Of a DNA stretch of 39,196 bases, positions 6,854 to 29,060 are shown piece by piece. The translations under genes were made by a program, and so were the position numbers. The notes beneath the pieces are model-generated. The model was given only the letters and a program-made list of their open reading frames with translations, did not search any database and was not told where the DNA came from. Source of the DNA: a virus. The stretch spans positions 1 to 39,196 of the IMG/VR virus record IMGVR_UViG_3300048836_001189; one strand, written 5' to 3'. The stretch's first letter is position 1; each line of letters starts with the position of its first letter.

Positions 6854-7716
6854 GCGATGATCTCCTGGAGAGTCATGCCAGCCTGGCCAAGGCGGGCGTA
6901 GGTGAACCTGGCGGCGGGCGGCGTGGCGTAGGTCGCGGGGAAAGCCTCGCGCAGCAGGCTCTTGGGATCGTCGGCGTCAGGGAGGAACAGCACCGGCTCG
7001 ACCGAGCCGCAGCGGGCGGCCGAGTCGATCCAGCGGTAGACCTCGTCGTCCGTGAGCCGGGTGTAGTCGACGGTGAGCACGCGCCGGCCACGGCGCTTCT
7101 CGGAGAACTCACGCCCGGAGGGCCCCTCATCCTTGACGTCGCGCGACCGGACGCTGAGCCCGCGGCCGCGCTCGAAGTTGTAGGTCGTCGACCAGGTCCG
7201 GCCGACCCACAGCCAGCCGATGTCGAAGTAGCCGGCCGGGTTGGTGGCGTCGTTGATCTCGACCCGAATGGCCGAGGTCGTCGTCAGGGGGAAGGTGATG
7301 AACTTGTGGCCGCGGTAGAGGGCGATGTCGGCTTCGGACAGCTGGCCCGACCACCAGTTGTCGTCCTCGAACTCCATGTCCTCAGGCTCGTAGACGGCCG
7401 GATGGATGGCGATCCAATCCGTCTGGTAGGCGGGGTTGTTGAGGTCGCCATCGGCGCCCGCCACCGTGATGCGGTAGGTCGCGTCGATGCTGAAGGAGTG
7501 GAACAGCAGCGCGATGATGCTGACCGCCCTGGTGCCCGGGAAGGTGATCTTGAACTTCGCCGACGCGAGGTCGGCCGGCGTGAGGCACCGCGCCGGGGCC
7601 GTCACGGGACGGGAGTCGTCCAGCATGTTGGCGAGCGGCAGCGCGGGCGCGTAACCCGAGCCCTCGCTGAGCACCGCCGTCTTGGCGTAGTTGATGTCGG
7701 TCACTCGGCCCAGCAT
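6850..7716 (-). CDS. Tail tip protein, 288 aa
   Basis: Putative structural protein of the distal tail. The ATG at 7716 was chosen because it follows the upstream TAG by two bases and has GGGGAT just upstream. Residues 1-180 are beta-rich, containing ITFPGTRAVSIIALLFHSFS and aromatic acidic segments (DNWWSG), reminiscent of a jelly-roll or discoidin-like fold. The C-terminal half is more basic and ends with a short helix. Its place between a hub-like protein and the fibres fits a connector or tip component. I do not recognise a named family by motif; the function comes from position. Confidence 0.75.
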   Translation of the reverse strand: MLGRVTDINYAKTAVLSEGSGYAPALPLANMLDDSRPVTAPARCLTPADLASAKFKITFPGTRAVSIIALLFHSFSIDATYRITVAGADGDLNNPAYQTDWIAIHPAVYEPEDMEFEDDNWWSGQLSEADIALYRGHKFITFPLTTTSAIRVEINDATNPAGYFDIGWLWVGRTWSTTYNFERGRGLSVRSRDVKDEGPSGREFSEKRRGRRVLTVDYTRLTDDEVYRWIDSAARCGSVEPVLFLPDADDPKSLLREAFPATYATPPAARFTYARLGQAGMTLQEIIA

Positions 7717-17931: not shown

Positions 17932-18861
17932 TCAGGCCACCGCGTCCTGGAAGAAGTAGCCGCAGTTGGCGGCCACGATGTGCTCGGAGAGCTGCTCCTC
18001 GACCTGCACCCGCTGCGAACCGCCAATGCCGATCTTCGGCTCGGGGATGATGCGGGTGGCCCGGGCGCCCTTGGGCACGGTCATGCCGAAGGTCATGCCG
18101 CGCTCGTTGTTGGCGAGCGGGTTGAGGTAGAGCATGGCGGCGTGCTTGCCCCAGGTGCGCTGGAGATTGGCCGCCTGGCCCTTGCGGGCGGTGTTCACGC
18201 GGGCCTTGCCGACCAGGATGCGCTCGACCTCGAGCTCCTCGGCGAGATCCTGCAGGCGCGCCTTGCCCCGCGTGGAGGCCGAGCCGTAGAGCTTGCTGAT
18301 CAGCTTCGGATGGGTGGCGATCTTGTTCCAGGTCGCCTGGCCGTAGATGATCGTGTTGGGGCGGATCAGCGGGATGTCGAGGGCGTCCCACTGCGCCTGG
18401 AACGGGTCGGCGTCGGCGTGCGACCACTGGCTCGTGCCGGCCAGCTGAGTCTTGTAGCCGGCCGGGTAGGTGCCCGCCCCGAACAGCAGGTTGGCGACGC
18501 GGACCTCGCGGTCCAGCGACATGATGTCGGCGACGTACTCGGTGGCGTGCGCCATCGGATCGTAGCCGGTCGGCGCGTCGGTGATGTCCTGGTTGGGGAC
18601 CAGGTCGGAGAGCGCGTAGTCGGAGACCTTGCCCGGCACTTCGGTGGCCGTCAGCTCGATCGTGTTGGCTTCCGAGCGCCGGTTCATCCGGGTGTCGGGG
18701 ACCGTCAGGACCTCCTCCACCGGGAACTGGTTGTAGCGGAACTCGCGGCTCGCCACCGGGGTGGCGCGCGGCAGCGCCTGGTCGGCGATCAGCTCCGCGT
18801 TGCGGTAGGCGATGGCGATGCCGGTGTAGGTCGGATGGATCGGAAAGGGCGCGTTGGCCAT
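17932..18861 (-). CDS. Major capsid protein, 309 aa
   Basis: Main head shell subunit. It starts MANAPFPIHPTYTGIAIAYR and carries the segment RMNRRSEANTIEL / PGKVSDYALSD typical of capsid proteins in siphoviral Mu-like phages, rather than Mu gpT itself. A C-terminal beta segment (TRIIPEPKIGIGGSQRVQVEE) ends in a domain typical of the last capsid strand. The length, single copy and position after the protease and decoration genes support the call. An HK97-type fold is inferred, not seen. Confidence 0.9.
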   Translation of the reverse strand: MANAPFPIHPTYTGIAIAYRNAELIADQALPRATPVASREFRYNQFPVEEVLTVPDTRMNRRSEANTIELTATEVPGKVSDYALSDLVPNQDITDAPTGYDPMAHATEYVADIMSLDREVRVANLLFGAGTYPAGYKTQLAGTSQWSHADADPFQAQWDALDIPLIRPNTIIYGQATWNKIATHPKLISKLYGSASTRGKARLQDLAEELEVERILVGKARVNTARKGQAANLQRTWGKHAAMLYLNPLANNERGMTFGMTVPKGARATRIIPEPKIGIGGSQRVQVEEQLSEHIVAANCGYFFQDAVA

Positions 18862-18898: not shown

Positions 18899-19282
18899 TT
18901 AGGCCGGCGTGGTCAGGCTGCCCGGCGCGAGGCGGAACTCGCCCACATCCCCGGCCACGTAGCTGTTGTTGGCGATGCCGATGACGCGGCAGGCCGCGCC
19001 GGCGGCGGGGGCGGCGGTCACGGCCTTGCCGTTCGCGTCGGCGGTGATCTGGTCGCCGCGGGTAATGTTGCCCCCGACGTCGATCTCGACGGCGTCGCCG
19101 CTCTGGTAGACGGCGACGCGGTCGCCCGCGGCGGCGGCGCCCAGGCTGTCGGACACGCCGATCAGCTTGTCGGTGGCGGCGGCGGCCTGGATGGCCTGGC
19201 CGTCGGCCGCGCCGAACTTCACGATGCGGCGCGGAAGCACGGCGGCGCCGGCGGTGTAGGGGATGGCGGGGTTGGTCCGCAT
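18899..19282 (-). CDS. DUF2190-like capsid decoration protein, 127 aa
   Basis: Small beta-barrel-like protein with repeated Gly/Ala/Asp turns: AADGQAIQAAAATDKLIGVSD, DRVAVYQSGDAVEIDVGG, ITRGDQITADANGKA. This pattern is typical of DUF2190 head-stabilising (cement) proteins. It lies between protease/scaffold and major capsid genes, 37 bases before the capsid start. It probably binds the outside of the expanded head. Confidence 0.85.
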   Translation of the reverse strand: MRTNPAIPYTAGAAVLPRRIVKFGAADGQAIQAAAATDKLIGVSDSLGAAAAGDRVAVYQSGDAVEIDVGGNITRGDQITADANGKAVTAAPAAGAACRVIGIANNSYVAGDVGEFRLAPGSLTTPA

Positions 19283-19305: not shown

Positions 19306-20427
19306 CTAGCGGCTGGCCAGGCGGCCGGCGGCTTCGGAGAAGGAGATCGTCTCGCCGCGCCCGGCGGCCTCTTCGCGGATCCTGGTGATCTCGGCGGCGC
19401 GGGCGGCGGGGTCGTCGCTCAGCGCAAGCCCGTCAGGAGCGGCGAACTCGGCGAAGCGGATGCTGGCGCCCAGGCCGTCGAGCAGGCCGCGCAGCGCGGC
19501 ATGGGCGTCGACGCCCTCGGCGAAGGCCACGCCGCCGGAGTCCCCGCGGGCGTGGGCCAGGCTGGCCAGCACGCCGTCGCGATGCACGGGCGGAAGACGG
19601 CCGTCCTTGACCAGCTGGTCGACGTAGGCGGCGTCGGCGTCGCGGGCGGTCCGCAGCGCGGCCTCGGCGAAGGCGGCGGTCTGGGCGGCGGCCTGCTGCT
19701 CGCGCGCGGCGATCGCCGCCTCGCGGGCCTCCAGGGCGGCCAGCCGCTCGGCGAGCGGATCGGCGGAGTCGGCTCCACCGTCGCCGGCCGGGGCCGGCTC
19801 GGCGAACGCCGGCTTGCCCTCGGCCTCGACCTCGGCGCGGACGGTGACCTGGATGTCGCCCGCCCACTCCTCGTTCCACTGCGGGACGGCCTTGTCGGCC
19901 TCCTCGACGCCGAACTTGCTGATCATCCAGTCGCGCAGGCTGCGCAGCGAGCGGCGGACGATGCCGGCGACCTGGCCGATCTCCGGATCGGCGAACTCGG
20001 CGAAGACGATGGGCTGGGCCTGGTCGTCCTGGGCGAAGGCGGCGGTCAGGCCCTTGATGGCCGGCGGGCGGGCGCCGAGGTAGCCGACATGGCGCGGATA
20101 CCAGGAGCCCGGCTTGGGATTGCCCGGCTCGTCGGGGCCGTAGAGGGCGAGCGAGGTGTAGCGGTAGGCGCCCGACTCCACGCCCTCGGCGAAGGCCGGG
20201 TTGACCTTCTCGAACTCGGGGACCAGCGCACCGCCCTCGCAGGCGAAGCCCTTGACCCAGCCGAAGGCGGGGTCGTCGGTCTTGGGATGGCCCAGCACGA
20301 TCGGGGCGGCGTGCAGCTGCGGATCGTAGGCCGAGGCGATGGCCTGGACGTCAGCCTCGCTGAACTCGTAGGTCTGGCCATTCTCGGCGCGATGGCGGCC
20401 GGCGCGGAAAACTTGGATCTGTCGCAT
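19306..20427 (-). CDS. Phage head protease/scaffold (Mu gpI-like), 373 aa
   Basis: The N-terminal half (about 1-150) matches Mu-type I protease: YEFSEADVQAIASAYDP, HAAPIVLGHPK and the SGAYRYTSLALY segment, where the conserved His and Ser are likely catalytic. The C-terminal half is Ala/Glu-rich and helical (LAERLAALEAREAAIAAREQQ), as expected of a fused scaffold. In Mu the protease removes the scaffold after prohead assembly. It starts with ATG at 20427 after a 392-bp non-coding stretch that carries a dyad shared with the endolysin operon. Confidence 0.9.
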   Translation of the reverse strand: MRQIQVFRAGRHRAENGQTYEFSEADVQAIASAYDPQLHAAPIVLGHPKTDDPAFGWVKGFACEGGALVPEFEKVNPAFAEGVESGAYRYTSLALYGPDEPGNPKPGSWYPRHVGYLGARPPAIKGLTAAFAQDDQAQPIVFAEFADPEIGQVAGIVRRSLRSLRDWMISKFGVEEADKAVPQWNEEWAGDIQVTVRAEVEAEGKPAFAEPAPAGDGGADSADPLAERLAALEAREAAIAAREQQAAAQTAAFAEAALRTARDADAAYVDQLVKDGRLPPVHRDGVLASLAHARGDSGGVAFAEGVDAHAALRGLLDGLGASIRFAEFAAPDGLALSDDPAARAAEITRIREEAAGRGETISFSEAAGRLASR

Positions 20428-20514
20428 CGTTCCGGTGGGCTTGGGCGTTTCAGCGAAGGCGGCGGCTAGACGTCCGCCGTGAGAGCCCGCATCATCGGTT
20501 GCGTCGAATGGGCC

Positions 20515-20536
20515 GTAAGCCCGGACAAATGTCCGG
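20515..20536 (-). promoter_or_regulatory. Late-operator dyad, copy 2 (upstream of protease/capsid genes)
   Basis: On the minus strand it reads CCGGACA-TT-TGTCCGG followed by GCTTAC. The only other copy noticed (28672-28693) differs only at the two central bases. It ends 87 bases upstream of the protease ATG. The position matches Mu PI, a promoter switched on by the C activator, which binds dyad sites. Probable binding site of the phage late activator; a good sigma-70 -10 box is not obvious. Confidence 0.65.
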
Positions 20537-20788
20537 TGCGCCCTGGGCGCCCGCCCGATCCCGACGCCGGTGCGCGTCCGACGCCGAGGCTCCTGTTTCT
20601 GGAAGACGCTAGAAGGCCCTGGAAGGGTGTTGGACGCCCGCGAGGGGCTTGCGGGCTATCAGCGGCGCACCCGCCCGCCGAGGCGGCTCAGCGGCCGGAT
20701 TTTCGGGGGCGTTGCTATTGGCGGCCCGGAGGCGCATTTTGCAGGGGACGGATGCAGACGCGAGGTCGCGGTCCCAAACTTCCGTCAC

Positions 20789-20816
20789 GCGCCCGGAGGA
20801 CCTCCCTCGCGGGCGC
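20789..20816 (+). terminator. Hairpin after the head protein gene, T tract on plus strand
   Basis: Arms GCGCCCG / CGGGCGC plus an inner GAGG/CCTC pair form a strong stem just downstream of the head protein stop. On the plus strand the stem is followed by TTTCTATTT; on the minus strand no T tract follows. As an intrinsic terminator it would therefore stop antisense (plus-strand) transcription better than the operon itself, though it may also protect the minus transcript 3' end. Confidence 0.5.
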
Positions 20817-20819
20817 TTT

Positions 20820-22130
20820 CTATTTGCGGCGATAGACCAGCGCGCCGACCCGGGCGCCGATGTCGGTGCGGCTGAGCTGGCGCGCTGGGTTGTCGGCCTC
20901 GCCAGGCGCGAAGGCCGTGGAGCCGAACCACCAGCCGCCGCGATCCGTGAACGTCAGGAAGAACCACTGGCGCTCTCCGGCGCCCAGATCCCACGCGGCG
21001 ACATAGGAACGGACGAACACGGAGCCGCCGTCCTTCGTGGCCTGGACGGAGTGCCAGATCTCGGCCGGATCGCGCAGCGTGGCCGCCAGGATCTCCGCAT
21101 AGGGCCCGCGCTGGGCGAGGTTGGCCTTGTCGCCCACGAACGCGCCAGCGGCGTCCTTGCGCTGGAAGAGCCCTCGACCGATGACGAGCGGGACCTGGGC
21201 GCGGTCAATGAAGACGTCGCCTTCGCCCTTTCCAAGCACCTTCGAGAAGGCGTCGAAGACGGCCTGTCCGTCGCTCCCGTCCAGGTCAGGGCGCAGCGCC
21301 GCGTCGAACGGCGGCTTGCGGGGCCGTGGCGGGGGCGGCAGCGCCGCCGGCGTGCGCCCGCCGATCACCTGCTCGCGCTGGCGCTCGGTGGCGGGGGGCG
21401 GGACGAAGTTGGCCATGCGCGCCTGGCCGACGTTGTAGTCGAAGCCCGGGTCGATGCCGAACGGGACCTGCATCGTCTCGCCGGTGCGCCTGTTGCGATA
21501 GCCCTGGGTCCGGTAGACGCCCCGCGCTCTAAGCTCGTCCTCGGGCGTCACCCGCTCGGCGCGGCGCAGCGACAGGGTGTAGCACTTGCAATTCCAGCCG
21601 TTGGGCGTCCAGTGCGTCGCCCAGAAGGGATGCGTGACCGGCAGGGTGATGCCGTCCCAGGCCTGGTGCTGCTCGCGCGGGTTGGCCTGGGGCGTGTGCT
21701 TGTAGACCAGGAACGGGCGGTCGGAGGCCGAGCGCATCAGCCGCTCCCAGCGGCCGGCGCTGTGGGCCATGCGCATGTTGACGTCGAAGATGGTCTGCAG
21801 CCGGCGGGGCGAGCCGAGCTGGGCCAGCACGGCCTTGCCGGTCAGCGGGTCGGTCATCCGCTGCTTGCCCCACCATCCCTTCGCCTGCAGCTGCGGCGTC
21901 AGCTCGGCGATGAAGCGGTCGCGGGACCAGCCCTCGTCGAGGGCCTTGAGCAGCCCGCCGTGGATGTCGAGGAGCAGGTCGCGGGTCATCGCCTTGGCCA
22001 CGACGAAGGCGACCAGGTGCTCCTCGCGCCAGACGTCCCGCCAGTTGAACGAGAAACGCCCGCCGACGACCTTGCGGCGCAGGTAGTCGACCGCCTCGGC
22101 CGGCGGCCTGCCCTTGAAGTCGACGGTCAT
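20820..22130 (-). CDS. Mu F-like head morphogenesis protein fused to PBECR2 nuclease-like domain, 436 aa
   Basis: Minor head protein. The N-terminal half (about 1-240) is of the Mu F/SPP1 gp7 type: RLQTIFDVNMRMAHSAGRWE, RPFLVYKHTPQANPREQH, and WATHWTPNGWNCKCY with the paired Cys typical of the family. The C-terminal part (about 290-436) matches the PBECR2 group of predicted RNase-like domains (barnase/EndoU/colicin E5/RelE-like) found on phage head proteins, including FIDRAQVPLVIGRGLF, AATLRDPAEIWHS and RQWFFLTF. The ATG at 22130 overlaps the portal stop as ATGA. The head role is well supported; nuclease activity is a family prediction. Confidence 0.9.
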   Translation of the reverse strand: MTVDFKGRPPAEAVDYLRRKVVGGRFSFNWRDVWREEHLVAFVVAKAMTRDLLLDIHGGLLKALDEGWSRDRFIAELTPQLQAKGWWGKQRMTDPLTGKAVLAQLGSPRRLQTIFDVNMRMAHSAGRWERLMRSASDRPFLVYKHTPQANPREQHQAWDGITLPVTHPFWATHWTPNGWNCKCYTLSLRRAERVTPEDELRARGVYRTQGYRNRRTGETMQVPFGIDPGFDYNVGQARMANFVPPPATERQREQVIGGRTPAALPPPPRPRKPPFDAALRPDLDGSDGQAVFDAFSKVLGKGEGDVFIDRAQVPLVIGRGLFQRKDAAGAFVGDKANLAQRGPYAEILAATLRDPAEIWHSVQATKDGGSVFVRSYVAAWDLGAGERQWFFLTFTDRGGWWFGSTAFAPGEADNPARQLSRTDIGARVGALVYRRK

Positions 22131-23668
22131 TGCAGCGCCTGGGCCTGCTCGCGCTCCTGGGCGGCGCTCAGCATCAGGCCGCCCGCGCCGGCCAGCCGGG
22201 CCTCGAACAGCGCCCGGGCGACCATCTCCTGCAGCTGGCCCGCGCCGTCGCCGGCGAGCAGCGCGCCCAGCTGGTCGGCGGCGGTCTGAAGGTCCGGCTG
22301 GGCCTCGACGAAGGCGACGACCTGGTCGCGCAGGCGCGTCATCACCGGCTCCCAGTCCATGGCGTCGGTGAAGTCGTCGATCGCGTCGGGCTCCTCGCCG
22401 GAGACTTCGGCGAACTGCGGCCCGGCCGGCGGGACCGGCGGTGTTGCGACGGCCGCCGGCGCTTCCGGCGCGGCGGGGGCCTTGACCGGCCGCCAGCCCG
22501 GGCCGGTGATGGCCAGCCGGGTCTCGTCGTCCGGCTCCAGGCCGGCGTCGCGCATCGCCTTCAGGGCGGCGGCCTTCTTGGCCAGCAGCTCGGCCGTGGC
22601 GGCCTCGTCCTCGGGCGACGGGCGCTTGACGATCGGCACGGCCGCGCCCGGGAAATTCCACTCGGTCAGCCAGCGGGCCGGGCCGTTCTGGAAGCTCTCG
22701 CACTGGATCTCGGCGTCGGCGTCGGTGAGCTCCTCGCGCACCTCCATGTGCACCTGGCCCTGGGCGAGGCTGGAGCCGTCGTCGGTGGTCATCGTCTGGC
22801 CGAGGATGATCTTGGCGATCGCCGCCTGCATCTGGCGGTGGAAGGTGGCCTGGTCGACGGTGCCGCGCGTCGCCTCGAGCAGCTCCATGACCATGGTGTC
22901 GGGAATGGCGGCCGCGCCGTCCAGGCGCAGGCGGCGGGCCACCGACAGGGCCTGCTCGGTCACGTCCCGGCCCGAGCCGGCCGGATACTTCACCACGGTC
23001 GAGGGCGCGCCGAACTTCTCCAGGGCGCGGAGCCAGAAGCCCAGGCCCTGCTTCTTGAAGTAGACCGGCCAGTAGAGCTGGTGCGCCAGGCCCAGGCCGT
23101 AGGGGTCGTCGTCGTTGTCCGCGCCCCAGCTCATGACCCAGAACTTGCGGTCGGGCATCAGCTCGCCCTCGGACAGGTTCGACAGGGTCAGCAGCCGCAG
23201 GCGGCCGTCCTTGTCGAACCGGAACCGCCAGGGCGTGCGGACCTTGGGCCGCGCCAGCCAGACCAGGCCGTCGCGCACCTCCCACATGCACTCCGCCACC
23301 GCGTAGCCGTAGAACTGGCCCCAGCTCATCTTGTCGCCGGTGCGGTCGAAGGGGATGGCCTCGAGGTTGCGGCGCAGCTGGTCGGCGGCGGCGATCGAGC
23401 GGGCGTCATCGGCGCCCGGCTCGATGATCAGAGGGCGCGAGGTCAGCGCCAGCCGGCGTTGCTGGAAGGTGGCGTGGACCTGGTCGTCGCGACGGATCTC
23501 GCGGTAGGCCTCGTAGTTGTTGCCGAGCCGCCGCAGGACGGTGTCCTGGACCTCGCGCAGCGCCCCCATGAACGGGACGGTGACGTCTCGCCCGTCGCCG
23601 CTGGCGGCGATCTCCTCGAGGGCGGGCTTGCCCGGGTTGTTCAACTGGGCGGGGATCTCGGGAACCAT
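22127..23668 (-). CDS. Portal protein, DUF935 family (Mu gp29-like), 513 aa
   Basis: Forms the dodecameric DNA channel of the head. Seen: the N-terminal part with LRRLGNNYEAYREIRRDDQVHA and VHATFQQRRLAL; the central MSWGQFYGYAVAECMWE and RFDKDGRLRLLT blocks; LYWPVYFKKQGLGFW; and FGAPSTVVKYPAGSGRD. All are typical of DUF935 portals of Mu-like phages. The C-terminal third is Ala/Pro-rich and variable. It begins one base after the terminase stop and overlaps the head protein gene. Confidence 0.95.
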   Translation of the reverse strand: MVPEIPAQLNNPGKPALEEIAASGDGRDVTVPFMGALREVQDTVLRRLGNNYEAYREIRRDDQVHATFQQRRLALTSRPLIIEPGADDARSIAAADQLRRNLEAIPFDRTGDKMSWGQFYGYAVAECMWEVRDGLVWLARPKVRTPWRFRFDKDGRLRLLTLSNLSEGELMPDRKFWVMSWGADNDDDPYGLGLAHQLYWPVYFKKQGLGFWLRALEKFGAPSTVVKYPAGSGRDVTEQALSVARRLRLDGAAAIPDTMVMELLEATRGTVDQATFHRQMQAAIAKIILGQTMTTDDGSSLAQGQVHMEVREELTDADAEIQCESFQNGPARWLTEWNFPGAAVPIVKRPSPEDEAATAELLAKKAAALKAMRDAGLEPDDETRLAITGPGWRPVKAPAAPEAPAAVATPPVPPAGPQFAEVSGEEPDAIDDFTDAMDWEPVMTRLRDQVVAFVEAQPDLQTAADQLGALLAGDGAGQLQEMVARALFEARLAGAGGLMLSAAQEREQAQALQ

Positions 23669-23669
23669 G

Positions 23670-25283
23670 TCAGTAGCCTGCGATGTCGACGCCGTCGAAG
23701 ATCTCGCCGGCGGTCATGGGGTAGAAGCCGGCCGGCGCGCCCGTGCGGCCGTCGGTGTAGGCGTCGGGCTCGCCAACGCCGCCCTGGCGAAGGGCCGCGG
23801 AGGCGTGGAACAGGGCGACGGCGGAGTCGGCGTGGCGGCGGACCTTGCCGGCCGCCGCCGCGGCGTCCTCGCCCTTGGCCTTGTTGCGCTGGACCGGGAT
23901 GGCCGGCGCGCCGTCGATCACCCGCACCTGGCGCAGGTCGGCGGCGACGTCGGCGTCGCGCGGGATCAGGATGCGGCCGTCCTCGAAACGGCTCTTGAGC
24001 GGCGCGCCCTCATCCCGCCACCAGTCGGCGCGGGCGCGGACGCCCTCGACCCGCGACTGGCCGTAGAGCTGCACCAGGCGCTCGGCCAGGTGTGCGCCCA
24101 GGCCCTGCTCGTCGAGCTTGGCCCGCCAGCGGCGCAGCCGGTTCAGGATATAGCGCCAGACGAAGAGCTGCTCGTGGAACGGGACGTTCCGCATCTCGAC
24201 GACGAAGGGCGTGGTCCAGGAGCGGTCCTGCAGCTCGACCAGCGGCCAGATGACCGACAGGTCGGAGGTGCGGGCGACGTCGCCGCCGACGCCCATGTTT
24301 TCGCCGCCCAGCTGCTCGAGCAGCGGAAGCAGGTGCTGCTCGCACCACTCGCGGACCTCGGCCTCGCGGATATGGTCGGGCTTGAAGGCGAAGGCGTCGT
24401 CGAACTGCAGGCGCAACACCGGGATGCCCGGCTTCTCGGCCCGCTCGATCTGGTCGAAGGCCAGCCATGCGCCGCCCGACCGGGCCGGGACGCAGTCCAG
24501 CTCCTGCTTCGCGCCGGCGCCGTACATGCCGTAGGTGTCGGCGATGAACTTGGCCTTGCCCTCGGGCGTCGGGGTGCGGCGGCCGACCAGGCAGATGCGC
24601 TCGTAAAGGCCGTCCTCCAGCGCCTTGGCGAAGTCGATGGTCATCACCCGGCCCAGGCGCTCGCCGGCGCGGATCTGCTGGATGACCTGGTTGAAGGTGT
24701 TCTCGACGCCGTAGTGGGTCGAGATGACCGTGACGTCGCCGCCCCAGATGGTCAGCGCGATCGCCGCGTCGAGCAGCGCTTCCAGGTCGCCCACGAAGGC
24801 GGCCTCGTCGACGATGACGTCGCCCTGCTTGCCGCGCAGCGAGCGGGGGGCCGACGACAGCGCGCGCACGAAGAAGCCGGAGGCGAAGTCGATCCGGAAG
24901 GCCTTGATGTGCTTGGTCTCGCCGGTGTCGGGGTCCTGGTCCTCGAACAGGTACTCCTCGGGCGCGCTGGCGGCGAAGCCGAAGGCCCGCGCCCACATGG
25001 CGCAGTAGTCGATGTACTCCCGCGTCATGTCGAAGGCATAGGAGATGTAGAGCTGGTTGCGCCCGCCGTCCGCCCGGCTGCGCGCCGCCCGCAGCACGCT
25101 GTAGGCGGCCACGCCCCAGGTGAAGCCGATCCGGCGCGACTTCTCGGCAAAGAGAAGGCCCGGCAGCGACCGGGCTTTGTGGAAGTCCTGCTGGTAGCCG
25201 AGCAGAAGGTCGCCCCGCGGCAGCGCCTCGAGCTCGGCGCTCAGCTCGGCGCCGTCCTGCGGCGGGAACGGCCCCTCACTCAC
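23670..25283 (-). CDS. Large terminase subunit (Mu gp28-like), 537 aa
   Basis: ATP-driven DNA packaging motor and nuclease. Seen: a Walker A-like AEKSRRIGFT (46-55), Walker B VIVDEAAF (157-164 region, with D159 and E160), and a C-terminal nuclease region with GGDVARTSDLSV carrying a likely metal-binding Asp. The length and motif variants fit the Mu gp28/FluMu family. The GTG at 25283 is preceded by GGGGGT and overlaps the DUF3486 stop by eight bases. It should package headful DNA from integrated copies, as in Mu; that mechanism is inferred from the family. Confidence 0.95.
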   Translation of the reverse strand: MSEGPFPPQDGAELSAELEALPRGDLLLGYQQDFHKARSLPGLLFAEKSRRIGFTWGVAAYSVLRAARSRADGGRNQLYISYAFDMTREYIDYCAMWARAFGFAASAPEEYLFEDQDPDTGETKHIKAFRIDFASGFFVRALSSAPRSLRGKQGDVIVDEAAFVGDLEALLDAAIALTIWGGDVTVISTHYGVENTFNQVIQQIRAGERLGRVMTIDFAKALEDGLYERICLVGRRTPTPEGKAKFIADTYGMYGAGAKQELDCVPARSGGAWLAFDQIERAEKPGIPVLRLQFDDAFAFKPDHIREAEVREWCEQHLLPLLEQLGGENMGVGGDVARTSDLSVIWPLVELQDRSWTTPFVVEMRNVPFHEQLFVWRYILNRLRRWRAKLDEQGLGAHLAERLVQLYGQSRVEGVRARADWWRDEGAPLKSRFEDGRILIPRDADVAADLRQVRVIDGAPAIPVQRNKAKGEDAAAAAGKVRRHADSAVALFHASAALRQGGVGEPDAYTDGRTGAPAGFYPMTAGEIFDGVDIAGY

Positions 25284-25842
25284 GGTCGACCCCCAGGATG
25301 GCCTTCTCGATCTGCCGAACCTTGTCCTCGGTCAGGCCCATGGCGCGGGCTTCCTTGGCGCCGGCGGCGGCGGCCTTCTTGCGGGCGGCCTCCTCGACCT
25401 TCAGCTCGCGATCGGCGTTGACCTTGATCGCCGAGGCGGCGTGGTGGATCGCCTTGGCGAAGTCGTGCAGCGACTTCGGATCCAGCGGCTGGTCGTCCTC
25501 GAGCTTGGCCAGCAGGTCGTAGCAGAGGCTCTCGAAGGCCCCGACCAGCACCTTGACGCCCTGGCCGTCGGCGACCTGCGGCCCCATCTCGGCGGCCAGC
25601 ACCTCGCGGAACTGCTGGGCGCGCTTGAGGCGATCGGCGACCTTGGCGAACTTCTGGGCGTAGCGGCCGACCGACGACCGAGACGGGGCGTCGCCCAGGC
25701 CGTTGAAGACCAGCAGCGCCTCGAGGCGGTTCATCACCTCGTCCAGGCTCATGCGGCCGGCGAGGAACTCGGCCAGCCAGGACTCGAGCGACCGGCGCGC
25801 GCCTTCGGGCAGCTTCTCGACCTTCGACCGGGCCATGCTCAC
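25276..25842 (-). CDS. DUF3486 family protein (Mu gp27-like, small terminase role), 188 aa
   Basis: Predicted DNA-recognition partner of the large terminase. It begins (V)SMARSKVEKLPEGARRSLES and continues with a helical DNA-binding-type segment ending SRSSVGRYAQKF, the hallmark of DUF3486, then a coiled-coil C-half. Two starts are possible: GTG at 25842, overlapping the upstream stop as GTGA, or ATG at 25836, directly behind GGGGGTGAG and matching the usual MAR start of the family. Confidence 0.9.
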   Translation of the reverse strand: MSMARSKVEKLPEGARRSLESWLAEFLAGRMSLDEVMNRLEALLVFNGLGDAPSRSSVGRYAQKFAKVADRLKRAQQFREVLAAEMGPQVADGQGVKVLVGAFESLCYDLLAKLEDDQPLDPKSLHDFAKAIHHAASAIKVNADRELKVEEAARKKAAAAGAKEARAMGLTEDKVRQIEKAILGVDRE

Positions 25843-26141
25843 CCCCGCGGCGAGGGGCGCTTGACGCCCGGATAGGTGACGACGCCCAGGCGGACCTCGT
25901 CGCCCTTCGTGGTCAGGGTCGCGACCGCGACGTCGGCGATCGGCCGCTCGATCGTGATCAGCTGGTGACGCTCCAGCCAGGCCAGCTCGGCCGCCAGGAC
26001 GTCGCGCGGCTCATCGAAGCCCATGTCGCGCAGCGCATGGGCCAGGGTGCTCTCGTTCAGCCGGTAGCCGGCCGCCTCGCCCAGCAGGCGCAGGGCGCAC
26101 AGCCGCAGGGATTCGAGGATCCGCTCGCGCAGGGTGCTCAT
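25839..26141 (-). CDS. Small winged-helix-like phage protein (VpaChn25_0724-type), 100 aa
   Basis: An all-helical N-half with ESTLAHALRDMGFDEPRDVLAAELAWLERHQL, followed by two strands (LITIERPIADVAVATLTTKGDEV), gives a winged-helix pattern. Proteins of this type sit between DUF2730 and DUF3486 genes in Mu-like phages and are annotated as VpaChn25_0724 family or ArsR-like. It overlaps the upstream gene by ATGA. It may bind DNA; its role in the phage is not established. Confidence 0.8.
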   Translation of the reverse strand: MSTLRERILESLRLCALRLLGEAAGYRLNESTLAHALRDMGFDEPRDVLAAELAWLERHQLITIERPIADVAVATLTTKGDEVRLGVVTYPGVKRPSPRG

Positions 26142-26536
26142 CGCTTCTCGGACTCCAGGATGTGGTCGCGCACCACCCGGACCATCTCCTGGGTGTTGCT
26201 GACCTTCTCGGCGACGCCGGCGACCTGGACCTCGATCTCGCCGACGCGGTCGGCCAGCTCCTTGACGTCCTGGGCGGTCGGCAGGTGCTCGACCCGCTCC
26301 TCGAGGCGGGTGAGCCGGTTGTTCATGCCGCCCAGCTCGCCGCGCAGATCCTTCTCGAGGCGTTCGATGGTCGCCCGGGCGGTGGCGTCGATGCGCTCGA
26401 TGCGCTGGCCGGTCCGGGACTCGCGCGCCTCCTGGGCGTCGGAGCTGCGCCAGCCGCCGGTGCGCCAGGCGACGAAGATGGCCACCGCCAAGGTGCCGAT
26501 CGGCACGACCAGCTGAATGAACTGCAGCAGACTCAC
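26138..26536 (-). CDS. DUF2730 family membrane-anchored coiled-coil protein, 132 aa
   Basis: One N-terminal transmembrane helix (about residues 5-25, IQLVVPIGTLAVAIFVAW) is followed by a long coiled coil and the segment LPTAQDVKELADRVGEIEVQV, diagnostic of DUF2730 in Mu-like phages (cf. Mu gp25). I chose GTG at 26536 because it overlaps the upstream stop as GTGA and has GAGAGGGG just before it. An in-frame ATG at 26581 would add 15 residues. Confidence 0.87.
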   Translation of the reverse strand: MSLLQFIQLVVPIGTLAVAIFVAWRTGGWRSSDAQEARESRTGQRIERIDATARATIERLEKDLRGELGGMNNRLTRLEERVEHLPTAQDVKELADRVGEIEVQVAGVAEKVSNTQEMVRVVRDHILESEKR

Positions 26537-26751
26537 AGACCCCTCTCCCGGCGCTCTCGCGCCTCCTGACACTCCAGACACCGCAGGGCCGACGGGAGCG
26601 CCGCGCGGCGCTCAGGATCGATGTCGTCCCCGCAGTCCAGGCACCACCGGAACGGGTTGGTCTCCCGCCCGGCGGCCCTCACGATTCCGGCGATCGCGGC
26701 GTCGCGCTCGCCCTCTTCCAGGCGCTGGGCCTGGTCACACACGTCGCTCAT
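26533..26751 (-). CDS. TraR/DksA-type zinc-finger protein, 72 aa
   Basis: Carries the TraR/DksA zinc finger C-L-D-C-G-D-D-I-(16 residues)-C-L-E-C (first pair near residues 37-40, second near 58-61), preceded by a helical segment with DQAQRLEEGERDAAI. TraR-like phage proteins can bind the secondary channel of RNA polymerase and mimic DksA with ppGpp. Such small zinc-finger genes are common in the lysis/packaging region of Mu-like phages. It overlaps its neighbours on both sides. Confidence 0.9.
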   Translation of the reverse strand: MSDVCDQAQRLEEGERDAAIAGIVRAAGRETNPFRWCLDCGDDIDPERRAALPSALRCLECQEARERRERGL

Positions 26752-26885
26752 CGGCCTCGCCGCCAGCGCCGGGGCCGCGCGGACGGGCCGACCATCAGGC
26801 TGCGAAACAGCATGTAGAGCCCCCAGCCGGCGACCACCGGGACGGTGATCACGCCCGCGACATAGGCGCCCAGAACCACGCTCAT
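26748..26885 (-). CDS. Small membrane protein, 45 aa
   Basis: A 45-residue frame with ATG at 26885 overlapping the o-spanin stop as ATGA, and its TGA overlapping the zinc-finger start as ATGA. It has a hydrophobic segment of about 26 residues (VVLGAYVAGVITVPVVAGWG...LYMLF) and then an Arg-rich tail (RPRRWRRGR). This is a single-span membrane protein with a positive C-terminus. Perfect coupling on both sides strongly supports it being real. It may assist lysis, since it adjoins the spanins. Confidence 0.78.
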   Translation of the reverse strand: MSVVLGAYVAGVITVPVVAGWGLYMLFRSLMVGPSARPRRWRRGR

Positions 26886-27214
26886 CGGCCGGCTCCGGCC
26901 CGCTCGCACTCGGCCCTGGCGTCGGTCACCACCTGGACGGCCGCGTCGCCCCGGGCGATGCGCGCATCCAGGTAGGCGTCGCCCTCGTCGTTGGCGCGCA
27001 CGACCGCGCCCGGCGTCGGCTTCGGCTCCGGCGGCAGCTCGGCGTCCAGGGCTGCGGGGCAGACGAACCGCACCGTGGTGCGGCGCTCGATCACGGGGTT
27101 GGGGGCTTCAGGGTCGGGCGTCGCCGGGGCAGCCCCAACGTGCGCACACGCTGCCAGCGTCATAGACGCGAAGGCCGTCCCCATCGCGAGGCGCAGCTTG
27201 GACAGCAGCGTCAC
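26882..27214 (-). CDS. Outer-membrane spanin lipoprotein (Rz1-like), 110 aa
   Basis: N-terminal signal with the lipobox TLAAC (Cys23 predicted to be lipidated), then a Pro-rich segment (APATPDPEAPNPV, PPEPKPTP) typical of Rz1 proteins. Its start lies inside the i-spanin gene in another frame, overlapping it by 107 bases, the common embedded/overlapped Rz/Rz1 architecture. With the i-spanin it should span the periplasm and fuse inner and outer membranes in the last step of lysis. Confidence 0.85.
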   Translation of the reverse strand: MTLLSKLRLAMGTAFASMTLAACAHVGAAPATPDPEAPNPVIERRTTVRFVCPAALDAELPPEPKPTPGAVVRANDEGDAYLDARIARGDAAVQVVTDARAECERAGAGR

Positions 27215-27647
27215 GTCGGGCTTTCCTTTCAGATGCGATCTGGCCGCGTCGTTCGGCGTCGCGAAGGGCCGCGGCCCGTCCCTCGCGTTGTTGCTTGAGC
27301 TCGGCCTGCAGGCCGGTGATCTCGACCCCTGCGCTGGTCAGCTGGGCGTCCAGGCGCTTCACGGGCGTCGAGCAGCTGTGCTGCACCCCGTAGAGGTCGC
27401 CGCGCGCGAGGGCGGCGTCGCAGGCGCGCGCCCGGTCGGCGACGGCGTCGGCCGCGGCGATCTCGCGAGAGCAGACCTCGGCCGCGGGCCTCGCCTTCGG
27501 CTTGCCGGCGACGGCGGCCTCGCAGGCCTCGAAGGCGTCGACCCGCCCTTGCAGGCGATCGGCGCGGCGCTTTTCCAGGGCGAAGGCCCCGATCAGCGAG
27601 GCGGCGCTCAGCGCGCCGACGAGAAGGATCACGAGGCGCGGGTTCAC
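27108..27647 (-). CDS. Inner-membrane spanin (Rz-like), 179 aa
   Basis: One N-terminal transmembrane helix (about residues 4-24, RLVILLVGALSAASLIGAFAL) is followed by a periplasmic coiled coil (LDAQLTSAGVEITGLQAELKQQRE) and a Cys-containing C-terminus. Topology, length and overlap with a lipoprotein gene fit i-spanins. It overlaps the holin-like gene by ATGA. Several Cys residues (near 42, 59, 75 and 91, and in the C-terminal CARWGC) could make disulfides. Confidence 0.85.
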   Translation of the reverse strand: MNPRLVILLVGALSAASLIGAFALEKRRADRLQGRVDAFEACEAAVAGKPKARPAAEVCSREIAAADAVADRARACDAALARGDLYGVQHSCSTPVKRLDAQLTSAGVEITGLQAELKQQREGRAAALRDAERRGQIASERKARRDAAVQAAPRDGDGLRVYDAGSVCARWGCPGDARP

Positions 27648-27964
27648 GACGGGTCTCCCGGGGACTTGCCGGCCTTCACGGCGGCGGCCAGGCGGGCGAG
27701 GTCGGTGACCGTCGCGCCGGCCAGGTAGGTGAGCTGGACGAGGGCGAGCAGGGCGACCAGCGCCAAGCCGATGAACTTCAGCGCGTCGGCGTCGGTCAGG
27801 CGATGAATGATGAAGCCCAGCAGGACGCAGACGACCGCCGTGATGGCGTAGGTGTACCAGCGCCGGAACGTCCAGCGGACCTCGGCCAGGGGCAGCGCGC
27901 CCTCGGCGCGGGCCGCCGCCGCCCGGGCGTCGACCTTGGCGGTGAAGGCGTTGGCGTCACCCAA
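27644..27964 (-). CDS. Holin-like protein with two transmembrane helices, 106 aa
   Basis: The N-terminal 30 residues are soluble. Two hydrophobic spans follow (about 37-55, YAITAVVCVLLGFIIHRL; about 63-83, FIGLALVALLALVQLTYLAG) and a short charged tail. The size, two spans and location between endolysin and spanin genes support a class II-type holin that permeabilises the inner membrane and times lysis. No family-specific motif was recognised. Confidence 0.75.
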   Translation of the reverse strand: MGDANAFTAKVDARAAAARAEGALPLAEVRWTFRRWYTYAITAVVCVLLGFIIHRLTDADALKFIGLALVALLALVQLTYLAGATVTDLARLAAAVKAGKSPGDPS

Positions 27965-28595
27965 GGATCACCCCCTGGGCGCGGTCGTAGAGCGCCTTGC
28001 GGTCGGCCAGGCCGGTGAGGCCGCCGTTGAGGCAGCGCGTCGACGTCTCGACGGGCCGGGCCCCGTCGCAGGCGGCGTTCATGCGCTTCCAGGTCCAGAC
28101 GCCGATCGCCGCCTCCAGGGCGCCCTCGGGCTTGCCCACCTGGTCGGGGTCGCCGACCAGGTCGCGGCCGATGATCTGGCCCACTTCGCGGTAGGCGGCC
28201 TTACCGGTGATCTGCAGCCAGCCGCGACCCCGATAGCGCCAGCCGTCGCCGGGCGTGTCGTTGCCCAGTTCGCGGCGGCCGTCATAGACCTTCTCGGACA
28301 GCAGGCGCGGGTTGTTGACGTAGCGCAGCGCCACGTCCCGCGTCGGAAACCGGCTGGGCCACACCTTCATCAGGCGCTCGGGCTTGCTGTAGGTCAGGTT
28401 TTCGACCAGGCGCACCAGGCCCAGGCTCTCGTGCGCGACATGGGCGAGGAACAGGGCGGCCCGGGTCTTCGTTGTCAGGATGCCGGCCGCCGCCAGCGCC
28501 TCATGGCCGTCGGCCAGCGCCAGCAGCGACTCGGCCGGCGCGTTCGGGAACAGCGCGCGCCGGAGCTGGGGCGATGGGGCGAGGCGGTAGGCCAC
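27957..28595 (-). CDS. GH19 (chitinase-like) endolysin, 212 aa
   Basis: Peptidoglycan-degrading lysis enzyme. Seen: the GH19 signature AHVAHESLGL (Glu56, likely catalytic), ENLTYS, the block RELGNDTPGDGWRYRGRGWLQITGKAAY, and the C-terminal TRCLNGGLTGLADR typical of phage GH19 lysozymes. There is no signal peptide, so export depends on the holin. The GTG at 28595 has GGAG eight bases upstream. It is the first gene of the late transcript, as lys is in Mu. Confidence 0.95.
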   Translation of the reverse strand: MAYRLAPSPQLRRALFPNAPAESLLALADGHEALAAAGILTTKTRAALFLAHVAHESLGLVRLVENLTYSKPERLMKVWPSRFPTRDVALRYVNNPRLLSEKVYDGRRELGNDTPGDGWRYRGRGWLQITGKAAYREVGQIIGRDLVGDPDQVGKPEGALEAAIGVWTWKRMNAACDGARPVETSTRCLNGGLTGLADRKALYDRAQGVILG

Positions 28596-28615
28596 CGGGC
28601 GACTCCTGCGGAAAT

Positions 28616-28633
28616 GCCCGGCGAACGCCGGGC
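28616..28633 (-). other. Leader hairpin before the endolysin gene
   Basis: A perfect inverted repeat (GCCCGGCG / CGCCGGGC, two-base centre) lies 20 bases upstream of the endolysin GTG, just before its GGAG ribosome-binding site. On the minus strand it is followed by ATTTCC. It could be a weak terminator for early transcripts or an mRNA leader structure affecting endolysin translation. Confidence 0.5.
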
Positions 28634-28655
28634 GGGAACAGGGTCACAGGGTCGC

Positions 28656-28693
28656 GTATCAGGAGAGCCGGGTAAGCCCGGACAGTTGTCCGG
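28656..28693 (-). promoter_or_regulatory. Putative late (Plys-like) promoter with activator dyad, copy 1
   Basis: On the minus strand the dyad CCGGACA-AC-TGTCCGG (28672-28693, extended by GCTTAC) is followed, 17 bases after its TGTCCG, by TGATAC (28661-28656), a possible -10 box. The dyad touches the stop codon of the Mor-like gene and lies 77 bases upstream of the endolysin start. The dyad overlapping the -35 region is how Mor/C activators act in Mu. Activator identity is inferred. Confidence 0.62.
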
Positions 28694-28694
28694 G

Positions 28695-29060
28695 TCAGTC
28701 GTCGAAGAGCGGCAGCGAGCCGGTCCTGACCTTGGCCCGGATGCGCCGGGCGGTGCGGGCGTGGATGTCGCACGCCAGCGCAGTCTGCGTCTCCGTCGCG
28801 CCTTCCGCAAGCATCCTGGCGGCGTTGGCGCGCCGGGCGCGGGCGCCGCGGGCGGTGGCCATGGGGATGGTCGCCTTGCCCGTCCCCAGGGCCTTCACGA
28901 TCCTGCGCGCCGCGTGCAGGCCGACCAGGTCGACGAAGGCGCTGCCCGGCTTGTCGGAGATCTGCACCTCGGTGCCGCCGCGCTCGCGCGCCAGCTTCAG
29001 CGCCACCGCCTCGCCGGCGGCGTCGGAGATGTCGCCGAGGATGCCGGGCAGGCCGCTCAT
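28695..29060 (-). CDS. Mor/C-like transcription activator, 121 aa
   Basis: Probable switch from early to late transcription. The N-terminal half is helical (ISDAAGEAVALKLARERGG). Then come GTGKATIPMA, resembling the G-x-x-x-IP strand of Mor, and a C-terminal helix-turn-helix: AARMLAEGATETQTALACDI, then ARTARRIRAKV. It is the last gene of the early operon, exactly where Mu has mor, and its stop codon abuts a dyad that recurs before the capsid operon. Only one such activator is visible, so it may do the work of both Mor and C. Confidence 0.68.
   Translation of the reverse strand: MSGLPGILGDISDAAGEAVALKLARERGGTEVQISDKPGSAFVDLVGLHAARRIVKALGTGKATIPMATARGARARRANAARMLAEGATETQTALACDIHARTARRIRAKVRTGSLPLFDD

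Follow-up and report, generated by a model that had tools for sequence, protein, structure and literature searches.

The closest described systems are the promoters of bacteriophage Mu that are controlled by the Mor and C activators. In the middle promoter, Pm, the 16-bp Mor dyad is centered at -43.5, and a -10 element is present with no -35 element (PMC4287176, PMC4390567). The C-activated promoters Plys and PI likewise lack a -35 consensus, with a dyad positioned upstream of the lysis operon that follows the activator gene and another upstream of the protease/capsid operon. According to our own reading of Plys, the sequence TAGACT is placed at +34 to +39 from the center of TTAT-N11-ATAA. Mu C is a dimer of the Mor family, and Mu contains four C promoters, whereas two candidate promoters are found in the DNA described here, namely the 39,196 bp of the IMG/VR virus record IMGVR_UViG_3300048836_001189 (71% G+C), hereafter referred to as the window. 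A preliminary description of the window had matched these two sites to Plys and PI. The likeness holds for the architecture, but not for the spelling of the dyad, which is unrelated to that of either the Mu C or the Mor sites, nor for the relay of Mor followed by C, given that a single Mor/C-like protein is present in the window. Late regulons of the Mor/C type are a known kind; the variant proposed here, which is strongly supported by the comparisons that follow, has a GC-rich, lineage-specific dyad served by a single activator.

Also compared were transposable phages of the B3-like and alphaproteobacterial groups (B3, TJ1, vB_ThpS-P1, vB_RhkS_P1, and StopSmel). The alphaproteobacterial transposable phages display the same gene order as the window, that is mor, lysis, head genes, a gap, protease, and capsid. 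In TJ1, ThpS-P1, and RhkS_P1 there is, as in the window, one element common to both late gaps, but it is spelled differently. No description of such shared elements in these phages was found in the literature.

The main phage genes of the window are read from the minus strand, and the presence of a Mu A-like DDE transposase, GemA, Mor, and the Mu/B3 head genes identifies the virus as a Mu-type transposable phage. The genes and promoter elements of the window given below lie on the minus strand. The lysis operon begins with a GH19-type endolysin (27,957 to 28,595; phrog_181), which initiates with GTG at 28,595. The capsid operon begins with the head maturation protease (19,306 to 20,427; phrog_976; ATG at 20,427) and continues with a scaffold/cement protein (18,899 to 19,282) and the major head protein (17,932 to 18,861). 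The putative late activator is the Mor/C-like protein encoded by 28,695 to 29,060 (phrog_836, 1.7e-17), the stop codon of which occupies 28,695 to 28,697. These matches bear out the gene assignments of the preliminary description. The lysis gap of 99 bp (28,596 to 28,694) is bounded by this stop codon and the endolysin GTG, and the capsid gap of 392 bp (20,428 to 20,819) by a MuF-like gene and the protease ATG.

Each gap contains one copy of a 16-bp dyad, CCGGACAACTGTCCGG at 28,678 to 28,693, which is the proposed activator site of a Plys-like lysis promoter, and CCGGACATTTGTCCGG at 20,521 to 20,536, which is the proposed activator site of a PI-like protease/capsid promoter. The pattern CCGGACANNTGTCCGG is matched exactly at both positions. 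With the flanking GCTTAC that is common to both copies (28,672 to 28,677 and 20,515 to 20,520), the two 22-mers at 28,672 to 28,693 and 20,515 to 20,536 differ solely in their two central bases, exactly as first described. The lysis dyad begins directly after the Mor-like stop codon. The dyads lie 82 and 93 bp from the start codons of the endolysin and the protease, respectively, or 76 and 87 bp when measured from the 22-mers, in good agreement with the 77 to 87 bases given previously. It had been argued that many further copies inside genes would speak against a regulatory role. No third copy is present in the 39,196 bp with up to two mismatches allowed; the nearest other match to the core, at 7336, contains one mismatch and is located inside a gene.

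In all, 15 perfect 7-2-7 dyads were counted in the window, as compared to 8.1 expected from Markov simulations, and the pair under study is the only one among them with identical arms. A pair of dyads with identical arms, located anywhere, arose in two of 60 simulated genomes, a figure that takes account of neither the placement in the two late-operon gaps nor the six additional matching bases. The exact 22-mer had no match in the viral contigs because the GCTTAC segment is not conserved. Indeed, apart from a related GGGGCTA/GGGGCGAA, the relatives do not carry it.

Searches with the Mor-like protein of the window as a single query revealed no relatives in either viral contigs or phage records, and those with its major head protein revealed none in either viral or genome contigs. 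Alignments were therefore needed, and searches with head-protein and Mor alignments yielded more than 100 related loci from IMG/VR and GTDB; an alignment of eight head sequences proved too diverse for the scan. Exactly two copies of a phage's own dyad, separated by ~7.5 to 9.5 kb, were observed in 12 phages, specifically the window and 11 relatives (G001, G029, G031, G032, L226, L231, L236, L237, L240, L241, and L253), each count referring to the stretch read in that phage. The dyads of the derivation set were picked visually, and counts are raised by the inclusion of near relatives. Wherever both flanks could be read, one copy was positioned immediately past the 3' end of the Mor-like gene and the other before the protease gene. 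A lysis dyad is found at the equivalent place in G001, G029, G031, G032, L226, L231, and L232. The exact window motif lies 70 to 126 bp before the protease gene in L041, L075, L077, and L171, the head proteins of which are only 42 to 67% identical to their queries.

The arms of the dyads are identical within a phage, differ between phages, and are symmetric in every case. Spellings include CCGGACA in the window, CCTGACA, CCCGACA (as in G031 and G032), TGCGGAC, and CCCTGAAC. The arm in G001 and G029 is CTGACA, that in G027 is CCCTGAAC (with the site reading CCCTGAACGCGTTCAGGG), and the spelling in G025 is GGAGACCGA/TCGGTCTCC. A Roseomonas group displays TGCGGAC/GTCCGCA, and TJ1 displays TGGTGAA/TTCACCA. 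Such concerted spelling is the pattern to be expected if a protein particular to each phage acted in trans on more than one site. In G025 there is a third copy before another small gene, which may be a tail gene, recalling Mu PP. Mor homologues are present in StopSmel, G008, G022, and G026, and the gaps examined in these contain no shared dyad. Phage KS10 was of no use as a paired test since its two gaps are one and the same.

When 28 sites from the closer group were aligned on the dyad center, the two strongest columns downstream were +34, with an A in 27 of the sites (p ~1e-20), and +38, with a T in 26 (p ~1e-18); these p values assume independent sites, and the sites are partly related. When 21 sites from a wider range of phages had been aligned before, the same two columns were the sole ones below 1e-4. 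They are four bases apart, which is the interval between -11A and -7T in a -10 hexamer, and they were read as a -10 element. The proposed hexamers of the window, GACCCT for lysis (28,648 to 28,653) and GATGAT for capsid (20,491 to 20,496), both span +33 to +38 from the dyad center. The lysis hexamer, with A at its second position and T at its sixth, agrees with TATAAT at these two key bases only. No sigma-70 promoter pair was found between 20,000 and 29,500, and a consensus -35 is absent. On the basis of the Mu Pm layout (PMC4287176) and the dyad alignment, the lysis transcript is predicted to start at 28,641 to 28,642, and the capsid transcript near 20,484. With starts so predicted, the dyads are centered near -43.5 with a -10 element present, as in Mor/C-dependent promoters. 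The spacing between dyad and -10 is within 1 bp of that in Mu Pm, the dyad center in the window being ~1 bp further away. In several relatives the ATG occurs at +45 to +47 from the dyad center. The predicted transcript start coincides with the start codon in L075, L077, L236, and the Roseomonas loci, and due to this position the late mRNAs of these relatives may be leaderless.

The Mor-like protein of the window is related to the Mu activators, with the Mor-family profile matching Mu Mor (1rr7) at 1.8e-7 and Mu C (9l0x) at 5.5e-6. Of the 22 homologues that were aligned, 19 match the Pfam Mor model, PF08765; the window protein itself does not. The C-terminal region contains a helix-turn-helix motif (HTH_23, 2.4e-6), with helices predicted for residues 90 to 97 and 101 to 113, such that Arg 105 falls in the predicted recognition helix. 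A monomer model had a pLDDT of 83.9, and a Foldseek search with it gave no significant match, 1rr7 appearing only with an E value of 2.9; the Mor fold is that of a swapped dimer. Only one phrog_836 protein was found in the record, which may be incomplete, and the Mor-then-C relay of Mu thus seems to be reduced to one step in this phage.

Across every column of Mor in 20 non-redundant phages, residue 105 was the best predictor of the variable base in the half-site, with a z score of 5.97 as compared to 4.06 for the next column. In 23 of 23 pairs of phages with the same residue at this position, the base was also the same. An arginine is found with G, a glutamate with C, and an aromatic residue, histidine, or serine with T. 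The residue/base label underwent at least seven concordant changes on a Mor tree built with residue 105 masked. The derivation dyads had been chosen with the rule in sight, and for that reason the rule was fixed in writing before a new search of 385 alphaproteobacterial genomes, which provided eight new prophages that combined a predicted residue with a qualifying dyad. The rule was correct for seven of the eight (p ~0.007; with two near copies taken as one, 0.015), the exception being L254, in which an arginine is paired with T. The -10 bases were located within one position in all nine qualifying new dyads. The Roseomonas group, with glycine and G, falls outside of the rule. In L249 and L253, residue 106 of Mor is a tyrosine rather than an arginine and the half-site core is changed from GAC to GCA, so a second specificity contact at residue 106 is possible.

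The sites, their positions, their identity within each phage, the -10 spacing, and the covariation of residue and base were all computed here, and they support the regulon that had been proposed and the proposed binding motif for the Mor-like protein. From them we infer, with a probability of about 0.9, that the two dyads are the sites of the phage's own Mor/C-type activator dimer, from which both late operons are started. It is thus very probable that the lysis and capsid genes are switched on through this dyad. In the proposed mechanism, the activator, encoded by the gene that closes the early block, would bind as a dimer to the dyad at about -44 and so replace the missing -35 element. Residue 105 would contact the variable base, which is located six positions away from the center (in the window, arginine reading G). 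Host RNA polymerase would then be recruited to the poor -10 elements, GACCCT or GATGAT, and both late operons would start from these promoters. Mu Pm drives gene C, whereas the Mor-like protein of the window appears to act directly on the late operons.

An alternative is that the dyads serve as operators for another phage regulator, the c repressor or Ner, by which the late operons would be silenced in the prophage. Palindromes near promoters are typical of repressor sites, and there are two copies only. This is nonetheless improbable, for the dyad lies upstream of the -10 element at an activator's distance without a -35, the half-site base covaries with the recognition helix of Mor, and the site adjoins the mor gene. 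That the dyads are RNA hairpins or terminators ending the upstream transcripts is even less probable. While a GC-rich dyad directly after the mor stop codon invites this view, as does a separate terminator-like hairpin at 28,616 to 28,633, no run of T residues follows either dyad, neither was flagged in a terminator scan, and the fixed register of the -10 relative to the dyad center, in both gaps and in all relatives, would be left unexplained. Finally, chance or a recent duplication of a spacer segment, to which the shared stretch of just 22 bp might point, is refuted by the comparison, in that both places are conserved in many diverged phages with concerted changes in spelling.

Downstream of the activator site, the lysis leader is predicted to fold into a structure spanning 28,601 to 28,645 (-26.4 kcal/mol, z of -4.0). 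An inner hairpin, GCCCGGCGTTCGCCGGGC (28,616 to 28,633), is enclosed by an outer helix in which 28,638 to 28,645 pair with 28,601 to 28,609, and which holds the Shine-Dalgarno sequence GCAGGAG. The GC-rich hairpin follows the predicted late start by ~10 nucleotides and is observed before the lysis gene only. The ribosome site of the T4 lysis gene e can pair with sequence upstream of its late start (PMC3014915), and the leader of the window is predicted to have the same capacity, although T4, unlike the window, employs its own late promoter system. A T4-like role, in which the Shine-Dalgarno sequence would be hidden in early read-through mRNA and exposed for translation in a late mRNA begun inside the left strand, is a tentative and somewhat doubtful suggestion from the folding models. 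In its favor, the same nested hairpin is common to nine lysis leaders, those of the window and eight relatives (G001, G029, G031, L226, L231, L232, L234, and L237), despite their different sequences; the outer strand varies with the pairing kept, and most relatives have GCAA as the inner loop, as compared to a UUCG-like loop in the window. Moreover, since the late-start RNA would lose part of the left strand, its start region is predicted to be more open, the mean unpaired probability for ten leaders being 0.32 for read-through RNA and 0.54 for RNA begun at the late start, and that for the window 0.21 and 0.36. The opening is modest, however, with little or none in G001, L226, and L234, and the z scores are weak for G001 and L232. 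In addition, the inner hairpin, which has a short U run, resembles a terminator, and termination of the early transcript would be the simpler explanation. A helix like that of the lysis leader, GGGGCTCA...TGAGCCCC, occurs in the protease leaders of L041, L170, L171, L174, and L226, where the left strand falls on the predicted start and the right strand precedes the ATG.

For an entire class of transposable phages, we consider it nearly an even chance that evolution of the late switch follows a recognition code of one residue, at position 105, with concerted spelling insulating co-resident prophages from one another and a lysis leader hiding the ribosome site from early read-through mRNA. The activator sites and predicted starts make the late regulon testable across a sizeable group of Mu-like phages that are uncultured, and the code can be checked by a one-residue swap. 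It would allow late promoters to be found in any phage with a Mor-like gene. The natural series of activator/site pairs bears on how the specificity of a transcription factor shifts in concert across the targets of its regulon.

Two additional features of the region before the protease deserve mention. At its C terminus, the MuF-like head protein (20,820 to 22,130, minus strand) has a PBECR2 nuclease-like domain (Pfam, 9.8e-14), possibly an injected or toxin-type domain. The 392-bp capsid gap, roughly midway along the record, is the counterpart of the gap in Mu that contains the central strong gyrase site, the cut site being annotated in Mu between G and I.
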